Source: Natrinema salsiterrestre
GTDB lineage: Archaea; Halobacteriota; Halobacteria; Halobacteriales; Natrialbaceae
Direction of reading: 5' to 3'
Assembly (NCBI RefSeq): GCF_029502005.1
Contig: NZ_JAMQOT010000003.1
Coordinates: forward strand, 419,571 to 483,570
DNA length: 64,000 bases
Shown piece by piece: positions 58,574 through 62,447 of this stretch (its first letter is position 1; every line of letters begins with the position of its first letter). The notes beneath the pieces were generated by a model that was not told where the DNA came from, did no database searches, and was given only the letters and a program-made list of their open reading frames with translations. The position numbers and the translations under genes were made by a program.

Positions 58574-59218
58574 ATGCCATCGACCGTCGTCCACGTCGCG
58601 TTCGCGGGACTGGTCGGAGTCGCGTTGCTGGGCGAACGGTTCGACACCAGGTCGATTCTGGTCGTGATGGGATGTAGCGCCCTCCTCGATCTCGATACGG
58701 TGATCGGAATCGTCGTTCCCGGGACCCACCGCGCGGCGTTACACAACGTCTGGATCGTCCTCCTCCCGGCCGGGTTCCTCCTGTGGGACGCGGTGATCCG
58801 CGAGGAGTCGATCGTTCGCGCACGGTGGGGAGACGCCGCCCCGCGCGTCGCGTGGGCTACCCTTGCGGGACTCCTGTTCGCACACGTGCTGTTCGACGCC
58901 TTCTTCAACGGCGTCAACCTCTTCTGGCCGCTTCACGACCGGTTTTACGACCTCTCGGGAACCCTACTCGTAACCGATCAGCGCGGCCTCGTCCAGACGT
59001 TCGTCGAGTTCGACGCCGGGGCGCTCGCCGACTCGACGACGCGCGGAACGACGGAGAACACCCACTACAGAACGGGGTTCGACCCCACACGAGACGAACC
59101 CGCGACGGACGTCGAGCGGATCTTCCCCATCGCTGCGACCGGCGAGCGGTTCGTGCTTGCGCTGGCTGGCTATACGGCCGTCATTGTGCGGATCGTAGAG
59201 GATCGGCGGTCTGCGTGA
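58574..59218 (+). CDS. Membrane-bound metal-dependent hydrolase-like protein
   Basis: A 214-residue protein with four or five hydrophobic segments, starting MPSTVVHVAFAGLVGVALLG; HVAF, ALLDLDT and LLFAHVLFDAFFNG place His and Asp residues in the pattern of the YdjM/LexA-binding-like membrane hydrolases. The C-terminal part (VEFDAGALADSTTRG...) is soluble. ATG 58574 is chosen; the frame is open upstream but translates poorly. Function unproven. Confidence 0.8.
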   Translation: MPSTVVHVAFAGLVGVALLGERFDTRSILVVMGCSALLDLDTVIGIVVPGTHRAALHNVWIVLLPAGFLLWDAVIREESIVRARWGDAAPRVAWATLAGLLFAHVLFDAFFNGVNLFWPLHDRFYDLSGTLLVTDQRGLVQTFVEFDAGALADSTTRGTTENTHYRTGFDPTRDEPATDVERIFPIAATGERFVLALAGYTAVIVRIVEDRRSA

Positions 59219-59399: not shown

Positions 59400-60365
59400 T
59401 CAGTCGGTTGCGAGCGATCGGAGCTGTTCGAGACGCGTCTCGAGAGGTGGATGCGTTGACCGGACTCCGGCCACAGTTTTGGCGGGTCCAAGTGTCGGAA
59501 GCACGTTGATCGCGTTCGCCGATCGAGTGTGCTCGCGCAGATCTGCTGTCGGTTTGGTGGGTTCGGCCCCGTCGAGTCGTTCGAGGGCAGCCGCGAGCGC
59601 CCCGGGATCCCCGGTCAGCGTCACGGCGGCACGGTCGGCCGCTAACTCGCGACCGCGAGAGAACACACTGACACCGATCGATGCGACGAAAGAGAGAAGG
59701 TGGCCACAGATTTCGGAGACGTTCGTCGTAGCCCCCTCGTCTTCCGTCAGTGTCTCGGCGGCGACGAACGGCACGAGTACGAGCGTCATCAGTCGAAGAT
59801 CATCGTTGGCAATATGGCCGATCTCGTGCGCGAGGACTGCTACCAGCTCGGACTGTGGCAGCGTCTCGATTAGCCCCCTCGAAATAACGATAACCGGCGT
59901 ATCGTCTCGCCCGACTCTGACAATAGGATCAGTTGGCCGATACGTTGTGTATGCGAGTGGCGTCGCCGTCGGATCGACTCGAAGCTCGGGTACTGGAATA
60001 CCAACCTGTCTCGCGAGACGGTCGACTGCGGAGTCGAGGTGCGATGTCTCGACCACCGCGACTTCCGAGGGGGGTACTGCCCGTTCGAGCAAAGCCCGAC
60101 GTTCGGCTCGAACAGCGCGTTCGATCGCTCGAGTGAACCAACCGAGTGCGACGAGGCCACAGAGCGACCAGAAAATCGGCCATACGTGACGAGGCGGGTG
60201 AATGGGAACATATCCCAGTAAATCGGACGCATACGCGGTGATAATCATTCCACCGACGACCGCAATTATCAACACAACAGTAAGGCTGCCGGCGAGCACT
60301 GCCCCGCTGATACTAGCAGCGAGGGCTGCACGGAGTGTGAGGCCAGCAGGTGTTGTGAATCGCAT
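59400..60365 (-). CDS. M48-family membrane metallopeptidase (HtpX-like)
   Basis: A 321-residue zinc protease. Two hydrophobic segments lie at about 15-45 and 62-80. The catalytic helix LAHEIGHIANDD supplies His180, Glu181 and His184, and ELAADR near residue 247 the third ligand. HtpX-type proteases act at the membrane on misfolded proteins; some relatives process peptide precursors. It is divergent from the halocin C8-like precursor, with 131 bp of AT-rich DNA between the starts, so a processing role is a testable inference. Confidence 0.9.
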   Translation of the reverse strand: MRFTTPAGLTLRAALAASISGAVLAGSLTVVLIIAVVGGMIITAYASDLLGYVPIHPPRHVWPIFWSLCGLVALGWFTRAIERAVRAERRALLERAVPPSEVAVVETSHLDSAVDRLARQVGIPVPELRVDPTATPLAYTTYRPTDPIVRVGRDDTPVIVISRGLIETLPQSELVAVLAHEIGHIANDDLRLMTLVLVPFVAAETLTEDEGATTNVSEICGHLLSFVASIGVSVFSRGRELAADRAAVTLTGDPGALAAALERLDGAEPTKPTADLREHTRSANAINVLPTLGPAKTVAGVRSTHPPLETRLEQLRSLATD

Positions 60366-60466
60366 ACGAGACTATTTTTCATTCCGTCTGAAAAGTATTG
60401 TTCTCTCCTCTCTACAATATATGATCGGCTATGTAGTGTAACACAGAAGTATATAAGATATAAAAA

Positions 60467-60476
60467 TATATAAATT
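60467..60476 (+). promoter_or_regulatory. TATA box of the halocin-like gene
   Basis: atatataaat lies in a very AT-rich tract and is centred about 25 nt before the ATG at 60497. That leaderless spacing favours 60497 over the ATG at 60491. Confidence 0.5.
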
Positions 60477-60496
60477 AGTAATTAGATTATATGATT

Positions 60497-61531
60497 ATGT
60501 CTGGAAACAAAGGCGCGAGCGGTGTAAGTCGACGAGGCCTTCTTAGAAAAAGCGCTGGTACCGGTTTAGGAGTCGCTGGTATCAGTCAAACTGCTGCTGC
60601 TTGGGAGACGGCGGATCCTAGAGATATCAAACAGATTCGCCGGTCGTCCGAGGTGAAAGCGGTTCTGAAGGAACTCAACAGCGAGCGACTGCCAAAAGAC
60701 GGGAAAACGAGAACGCTCACTGTCGACGGCCGCGGTGAGGTAACGACTACGAAAGTCGAATTTGAATTCGGGACACTCCGCTTCGGAGAATTCGGGGATG
60801 ATCGAAATGCGAATTTCACTTTCGACTCAATCACTCACCCTGCGGTCCCATCGAAGTTTGCGAACATCCCGGAGGGAACTGCACCCATATTGATAGCAAA
60901 CGGCGATGACGTCACGGTGAGTCGAGAGGCAACTGATCGTGAACGCGATATCGTCCTCTCGGCTGTCCCGGAGCGGGGCGATCGGGCTACTGTTTCTACG
61001 CGTTCCGATATCAACGGATTCCGCGTTAACGTCGCAAAGAATACGTCGAGCATTGAGGATACGGAGATAAAACGGTATACCGTAGAGTTGCCAGATAGTA
61101 ACTTCTCCCCAGCAGTACGAGATACGAGTGATCGGCTCGAGGATGGAAGTGAACTGACTGTCACTAATGAAGTCGAAATTCAAGGAATAAAAAGCAAACT
61201 AATCGGAGACTACGTTGAGGGCGTTATAGCTAGTAATCTCGGTGACGAACTACACGAATGTGGAAGTAATTGTGTCGGGTGTGCAGACTGGATCATCAGT
61301 CTGGCACTGGACTGTCGTCTGTGCGGCCCGCTTTGTACTAGTGCAGCGTCGGGTGCCGGCGCAGTTCTGTGTGGTGTCTGTGTCTATCAGTTTTGTACCG
61401 ATGTTGATGCCATGGTCGGATGTGCAGACTGTATTGCATGTGCCGTCGAAGGGAACTCCTCGTGGAGCAGTCCGACGACACCCGATATCCCAGAAGATAT
61501 CCCAGGTCTCGGCGGTGGTGTTCCCTGGTAA
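60497..61531 (+). CDS. Halocin C8-like microhalocin precursor (putative)
   Basis: A 344-residue exported precursor. The N-terminus has a Tat motif (VSRRGLLRK, then GTGLGVAGISQTAAA). Residues about 40-245 are a charged pro-region with no Cys, equivalent in position to the HalI immunity part of halocin C8. Residues 255-315 hold 12 Cys in a small hydrophobic domain (Cys255, 259, 262, 273, 276, 280, 292, 295, 300, 309, 312, 315), then a Pro/Gly-rich tail. Halocin C8 is a 76-residue Cys-rich peptide released from a Tat precursor of the same plan. Low GC and AT-rich flanks suggest transfer. The match is by architecture, so antimicrobial activity is inferred. Confidence 0.75.
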   Translation: MSGNKGASGVSRRGLLRKSAGTGLGVAGISQTAAAWETADPRDIKQIRRSSEVKAVLKELNSERLPKDGKTRTLTVDGRGEVTTTKVEFEFGTLRFGEFGDDRNANFTFDSITHPAVPSKFANIPEGTAPILIANGDDVTVSREATDRERDIVLSAVPERGDRATVSTRSDINGFRVNVAKNTSSIEDTEIKRYTVELPDSNFSPAVRDTSDRLEDGSELTVTNEVEIQGIKSKLIGDYVEGVIASNLGDELHECGSNCVGCADWIISLALDCRLCGPLCTSAASGAGAVLCGVCVYQFCTDVDAMVGCADCIACAVEGNSSWSSPTTPDIPEDIPGLGGGVPW

Positions 61532-61685: not shown

Positions 61686-62447
61686 CTACTCCGCCGACCC
61701 GCCACGCTCCGAGGGCGGTTCGGTCGTCTCGACATGCTCCCGGAGCCACCCGATCGCCGCGTCGACCGTCTCCGGATCGGTACTCGAGACCCGGAGCCGA
61801 CCCGGTCGGTTCTCGCTTCGCGGATAACTCCCGACGGAGACGTCGAACCGTTCGGTGACGCCCTCGAGCGCGTCGTACAGCGATCCCTCCGGGGCCGGCG
61901 TGTACAGGGTTCGGGCGACCGCCTCGCCCTGAAACTCGTCCGCGACCGCCTCGAACATCGCTCGCATCTCGTCGGGGATGCCGGCGAAGACGTAGACGTT
62001 CTCGACGATACAGCCCGGGGCCCACCCCTCGTCGACGACGATGGGCGTCGCTCCTTCGGGGATCGAGGCCGCGGCGTCGATGTCGAGCTGGAGGTCGTAC
62101 TCCTCGACCATCTCAGGGTTTTCGTCCCGGAATGCGGCCGCCTTCTCGACCAGCCGCTCGCGAATCTCGCCGTGGACAACGAACTCGCGCTCGAGGCCGT
62201 CGGCGACGGCTTCGACGGTCACGTCGTCGGGAGTGCCGCCGATGCCGCCGGTGACGATCACGGCGTCGAACTCGTCGCTCCACCGGGCGACGTAGTCGGC
62301 GATGAGTGCGCGGTCGTCGGGAATCGTCAGGATGCGAGCGACGCTACTGCCGCGTTCGGTGATCCGCTCGGCGAGCCACGACGCGTTGGTGTTGGTCGTC
62401 GACCCTGCGAGTATCTCGTCGCCGACGGTGACGATCGCGACGTTCAT
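61686..62447 (-). CDS. CinA/MoaB-type molybdopterin-binding domain protein
   Basis: A 253-residue protein starting MNVAIVTVGDEILAGSTTNTNASWLAERI, the start of the CinA N-terminal (MoaB-like, COG1058) domain. VIVTGGIGGTPDDVTVEAVADGL is the family phosphate-binding loop, and GCIVENVYVFAGIPDEM a later conserved stretch. The C-terminal amidohydrolase half of bacterial CinA is absent. In archaea these proteins may act in nucleotide repair (ADP-ribose or NMN metabolism). Function is not proven. Confidence 0.88.
   Translation of the reverse strand: MNVAIVTVGDEILAGSTTNTNASWLAERITERGSSVARILTIPDDRALIADYVARWSDEFDAVIVTGGIGGTPDDVTVEAVADGLEREFVVHGEIRERLVEKAAAFRDENPEMVEEYDLQLDIDAAASIPEGATPIVVDEGWAPGCIVENVYVFAGIPDEMRAMFEAVADEFQGEAVARTLYTPAPEGSLYDALEGVTERFDVSVGSYPRSENRPGRLRVSSTDPETVDAAIGWLREHVETTEPPSERGGSAE

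Follow-up and report, generated by a model that had tools for sequence, protein, structure and literature searches.

A new haloarchaeal family of putative microhalocin precursors with a predicted nested disulfide ladder

The stretch of DNA analyzed here (the window) comprises 64,000 nucleotides of the Natrinema salsiterrestre genome (RefSeq GCF_029502005.1, contig NZ_JAMQOT010000003.1, positions 419,571 to 483,570), and the gene of interest lies at 60497..61531 on the forward strand. Its open reading frame (ORF; 60491-61531) is intact and encodes 346 amino acids counted from the first ATG, or 344 from the later ATG at 60497, which is the likelier start because the related proteins begin with MS. 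Immediately 5' of the ORF, an AT-rich stretch with a TATA-like sequence (60440..60490, +) is probably an archaeal promoter giving a leaderless mRNA. The encoded protein opens with a Tat signal peptide (60497..60601, +), in which an Ala-rich stretch comes after the motif SRRGLLRK, which includes RRGLL, and ends at QTAAA/W. A Cys-free pro-region follows (60602..61252, +), predicted to form a helix-loop-helix (60617..60673, +) and then beta-sheets; its best-conserved residues are G94, F109/F111, R145, T148, and E151. The next domain is a core of 61 residues with 12 Cys (residues 257-317; 61259..61441, +), predicted to form four helices with three Cys each, and the protein ends in a Pro/Gly-rich tail (61442..61528, +; AVEGNSSWSSPTTPDIPEDIPGLGGGVPW), which is similar in kind in one subgroup of the relatives. 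The first Cys of the whole protein is residue 257, or 255 if counted from the later ATG, and a density of 12 Cys in 61 residues far exceeds what chance would give (binomial probability 1.8e-14 at an assumed 0.7% Cys). A first-pass annotation had proposed exactly this plan and a visibly low GC content; all the elements were confirmed in the intact ORF, and the gene indeed has a GC content of 52.3%, lower than that of the window (63.4%) and of the adjoining M48 gene (60.8%). Over the 60 codons that could be compared with the closest copy, a remnant in another Natrinema genome (L011, genome G067), 21 of the 35 differing codons are synonymous, which argues that the window protein has been under selection.

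The adjoining gene encodes an M48 family membrane metalloprotease (59400..60365, -; PF01435, E=1.8e-21) and is transcribed divergently, 126 bp upstream of the precursor gene. Both genes are bounded by a YdjM-like membrane protein gene on the left (58580..59218, +) and a CinA-like/MoCF protein gene on the right (61686..62447, -), the latter separated from the precursor gene by 155 bp. In most Natrinema genomes, the YdjM and CinA genes are adjacent and the island is absent; four genomes have only the M48 gene between them, the window has the M48 gene and the precursor gene, and G067 has the M48 gene and the remnant. Because the site differs in this way among the Natrinema genomes, it can be regarded as a variable island, and because four of them have the M48 gene without the precursor, the M48 gene does not depend on the precursor. 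M48 genes also flank genes of the same family in Haloferax larsenii and in three other genomes. We considered the M48 protein as a dedicated maturation protease, but given the four genomes without the precursor and the six M48 genes in the window's own genome, this assignment is suggestive only, and the protein is either a candidate processing protease or a bystander.

Relatives of the window protein were sought in its taxonomic family, in its class, and in two further families. About 50 proteins of the same plan were recovered, most of them sharing 22-36% identity with the window protein. They are scattered across the Halobacteria, in dozens of genomes that are independent of one another. Their distribution is patchy (20 of the 125 genomes of the taxonomic family, with a loose cut-off), and the records with members include Natrarchaeobius chitinivorans, Natronolimnohabitans, Natrinema gelatinilyticum, the Haloferax larsenii plasmid pHl5678-1, and a Haladaptatus plasmid. 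The whole family has a Tat signal, which TAT models match in relatives of the window protein, and a Cys-free or nearly Cys-free pro-region; the consensus of the core is C-x3-C-x2-C-x10-C-x2-C-x3-C-x5-(T/S)GxGA-x2-C-x2-C-x4-C-x8-C-x2-C-x2-C. When genomes were scanned for the Cys pattern, it was found only in haloarchaea, apart from one chance match in an ABC ATPase of Desertimonas, and no viral contig contained it. A phage search gave no match, and single-protein queries against genome and viral collections returned no related loci. The relatives annotated by NCBI carry the label 'hypothetical protein'. Tandem copies occur, and at one locus (L113, G210:C17) four divergent paralogs form an array of about 7 kb. 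Other copies are broken, by a nonsense codon in Natrinema gelatinilyticum (L090 4566-5444) and by an internal deletion in the G067 remnant, showing that genes of this family are actively decaying. These sequences constitute an unnamed haloarchaeal family with a Tat-type leader, a conserved precursor plan, and mobile, patchy genetics.

The cysteines of the core behave as disulfide partners. Their number is even in all 49 cores of the family, and among the 42 cores that could be aligned, Cys residues are absent only in pairs: C1 with C12 (1 core), C2 with C11 (13), C4 with C9 (4), and C6 with C7 (7), with no single losses and no other pairings. The divergent members L081, L113b5861, L167, L168, L170, and L082 were omitted from this table because their cores align poorly, as was the truncated L004; their Cys counts are even, too. 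When mapped onto a tree of the pro-regions, with the core excluded, these absences correspond to at least 10 independent events (at least one for 1-12, four for 2-11, two for 4-9, and three for 6-7). Every lost pair obeys the rule i+j=13, for which the probability with four random disjoint pairs is 2.9e-4. Because the Cys residues vanish only in nested pairs, their co-variation implies a nested disulfide ladder, from which we infer the disulfides 257-317, 261-314, 275-302, and 282-294 in the window protein; 264-311 (Cys 3-10) and 278-297 (Cys 5-8) are extrapolated by extending the ladder. An AlphaFold model of the core is all-helical, and each of its four main helical segments carries or abuts three Cys, which fits a ladder that would stitch helices 1 and 4 together, and likewise helices 2 and 3. 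The models back this picture weakly, because their confidence is low to moderate (pLDDT 53 and 69, the latter for the core), and neither had a significant match in a Foldseek search of the PDB.

In the halocin field, immunity is usually attributed to the precursor itself. We found that small membrane protein genes (at most 200 amino acids, two or more transmembrane [TM] segments) lie within 300 bp downstream of 17 of 45 family genes, as against 38 of 457 other genes from the same loci (p=4.8e-7, with simple heuristics for gene calling and TM counting, and with related loci treated as independent). Upstream, the enrichment is not significant (p=0.32). Such small multi-TM partners are candidates for an immunity function, but the window gene lacks one within 300 bp downstream, where the CinA-like gene lies, and a Pfam scan of three adjoining membrane proteins at other loci (L124, 248 amino acids; L116; and L102) gave no match. 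Halocin C8-like genes, defined here by the TIGR04449 model, neighbor some of the family genes, and among the TIGR04449 loci (L026-L055) the 300 bp downstream contain a small multi-TM gene in 10 of 25 cases, even though the model proposed for halocin C8 assigns immunity to a single gene. Precursors of both families recurrently have a neighboring membrane protein that bears QPEYTGENRC or a similar motif (L113, L114, L117, L108, and the TIGR04449 locus L041); one protein of this type was scanned against Pfam without a match. On the plasmid of Haloferax larsenii NCIM 5678, an M48 gene, a family member, a rhomboid protease gene, a halocin C8-like gene, and a 68-amino-acid TM ORF lie together within 7 kb (L086 19971-25749). 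This strain is listed as a producer of the 13-kDa halocin HA3 (Table 1 of PMC11509114).

The first-pass annotation had called the protein a divergent relative of halocin C8, and this comparison needs to be treated in two parts. The likeness in plan stands: both the window protein and the halocin C8 precursor, ProC8 (models TIGR04449 and NF040679), begin with a Tat signal, continue with some 200 pro-region residues that lack Cys and open with a predicted helix-loop-helix, and end in a hydrophobic, acidic, Cys-rich mini-domain, and in both families a small TM gene is often found 3' of the precursor gene. When 56 TIGR04449 cores were subjected to the same Cys analysis, the paired absences were C4+C7 (15), C3+C8 (3), and C1+C10 (5), all with i+j=11 (p=0.003), although the alignment is somewhat noisy and one core has an odd number of Cys. 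Both families thus appear, from co-variation, to share one disulfide topology, in which Cys i pairs with Cys N+1-i, with unlike spacing; a search for the disulfides of halocin C8 in one literature library found no paper. The differences lie in the details. The window core has 12 Cys in 61 residues, whereas halocin C8 has 10 in about 76 amino acids; most members of the new family have 10-14 Cys at other spacings and a conserved TGxGA turn between Cys 6 and 7, the pro-regions are unlike past the first helices, and the window protein has its Pro/Gly tail. TIGR04449 matches 47 of the 391 genomes of the class (42 above its cut-off), and a TIGR04449 protein in a genome of the same genus contains the exact halocin C8 core. 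An apparent TIGR04449 match in the window's own genome (L002) was rejected as a chance match antisense to an oxidoreductase.

Kinship in the strict sense would make the protein a genuine, if extremely diverged, offshoot of the halocin C8 precursor lineage. It would account for the common plan and the nested Cys topology, but we consider it unlikely. Neither TIGR04449 nor NF040679 matches the window protein, and among 16 relatives the only match to either model is a chance-level one to NF040679 (E=7.9). With enlarged alignments of both families, hhalign aligned core with core at E 0.04-0.06 and a score of 14.7, within the range of shuffled columns (10.5 +/- 2.4, maximum 17.5), and the part of the earlier proposal that made the protein a relative by descent is left unsupported by these comparisons. 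The whole pro-regions do not match significantly either; beyond the Tat signal, the profiles share only a marginal match limited to the first helix-loop-helix (E 0.005-0.1), which nevertheless outscores 179-180 of 180 block shuffles and so speaks for kinship. This match is of interest because the N-terminal helix-loop-helix of HalI is reported to be essential to halocin C8 immunity, according to the title of reference 22 in PMC11509114, but it is not proof of kinship. Also in favor of a common origin is an odd acidic leader containing GGC (e.g., DEEQYQNELNDAVDDGGGCxET), which precedes the Tat signal in some precursors of both families and is nearly identical among otherwise unalignable ones (L078, L035/L036, L044, L083, and L165); against it, the number and spacing of the Cys residues are unlike. 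Membership of the halocin C8 family is therefore not supported, and the family defined here is, at the sequence level, distinct from it. The window precursor belongs to a new family of the same kind, which probably functions like halocin C8.

Two readings would remove the protein from the antimicrobial peptides altogether. Csp1, a copper storage protein built as a Cys-lined four-helix bundle, is likewise Tat-exported, helical, and Cys-rich, and a Foldseek search with the core model ranks copper storage proteins first, albeit at a TM score of about 0.5 and a nonsignificant E of 1.5. A Tat-exported store for copper or another metal is nonetheless very improbable: the core is about half the size, the strict Cys parity and paired loss fit disulfides rather than thiolate clusters, and the large conserved Cys-free pro-region would serve no storage role. 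Moreover, the window protein has no Pfam match at E<=10, and 16 relatives have only Tat-type and chance matches. The window protein also has no match in NCBIfam, PADLOC, or the PDB sequences, so no other known family was found to span the whole protein, which would have spoken against the first-pass proposal. A non-toxic function for a secreted, disulfide-rich protein, as a cell-surface, mating, or signaling factor or a protease inhibitor, has a somewhat better claim but is still a poor prospect, below even kinship with halocin C8. The antimicrobial activity of the members is itself putative, and the recurring M48 neighbors could mean a protease with its regulator; on the other hand, the M48 gene occupies the Natrinema site in genomes without the precursor gene, and patchy, fast-varying, decaying, tandem genes with small TM partners better fit interference peptides.

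On balance, the window protein is probably a microhalocin precursor of a new family, which would give rise to a secreted antimicrobial mini-protein. This interpretation draws on the paired, nested Cys losses and the nesting shared with TIGR04449, on the Tat signal and Cys-free pro-region, on bacteriocin-like genomics (patchy, tandem, decaying, and low in GC), on an insertion site that is empty in most Natrinema, on the small TM partners and halocin C8-like neighbors, and on the hydrophobicity of the core, whose GRAVY of +1.1 is close to the +0.9 of halocin C8. Counting against it are the undetected core homology to halocin C8 and the window gene's lack of a small TM partner. Whereas the family and its architecture are supported, as is, by co-variation, its disulfide pattern, we infer the antimicrobial activity, processing, target, and immunity as follows. 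The precursor would be exported by the Tat system, with the disulfides probably formed beforehand or on export, and the pro-region of about 218 residues would keep the core soluble and inactive. The pro-region may also confer immunity on the producer, as HalI does for halocin C8, and immunity could come from it, from a membrane partner, or from both. An extracellular or membrane protease would then free the C-terminal core of about 61 residues with its tail. The core would be a four-helix double hairpin with six disulfides. Three of them (Cys 1-12, 2-11, and 3-10) would join helices 1 and 4, and the other three (Cys 4-9, 5-8, and 6-7) helices 2 and 3. The resulting peptide, hydrophobic, acidic, and rigid, would kill related haloarchaea, with the membrane as its most likely site of action. 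Another secreted haloarchaeal precursor, HFX_0892 (HmHapP) of Haloferax mediterranei (PMC12893001), compared here by description, is activated by an extracellular protease, but its active part is N-terminal and consists of two alpha-helices, whereas the candidate active part here is the C-terminal disulfide core.

To our knowledge, few archaeal antimicrobial peptides are known at the gene level, and the family described here opens dozens of candidate halocins. We speculate, with the balance about even, that the nested disulfide ladder is a building plan of general use among the antimicrobial peptides of archaea, one found in at least two unalignable families (the halocin C8-like family and this one), in which Cys i pairs with Cys N+1-i, whole rungs are gained or lost as units, and small multi-TM immunity proteins are encoded alongside. 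If this rule is general, it would predict 1-10, 2-9, 3-8, 4-7, and 5-6 as the disulfides of halocin C8, and the rung-by-rung loss of Cys would yield an explicit disulfide map both for the new family and for halocin C8, while the adjoining small membrane proteins would be concrete candidates for immunity.
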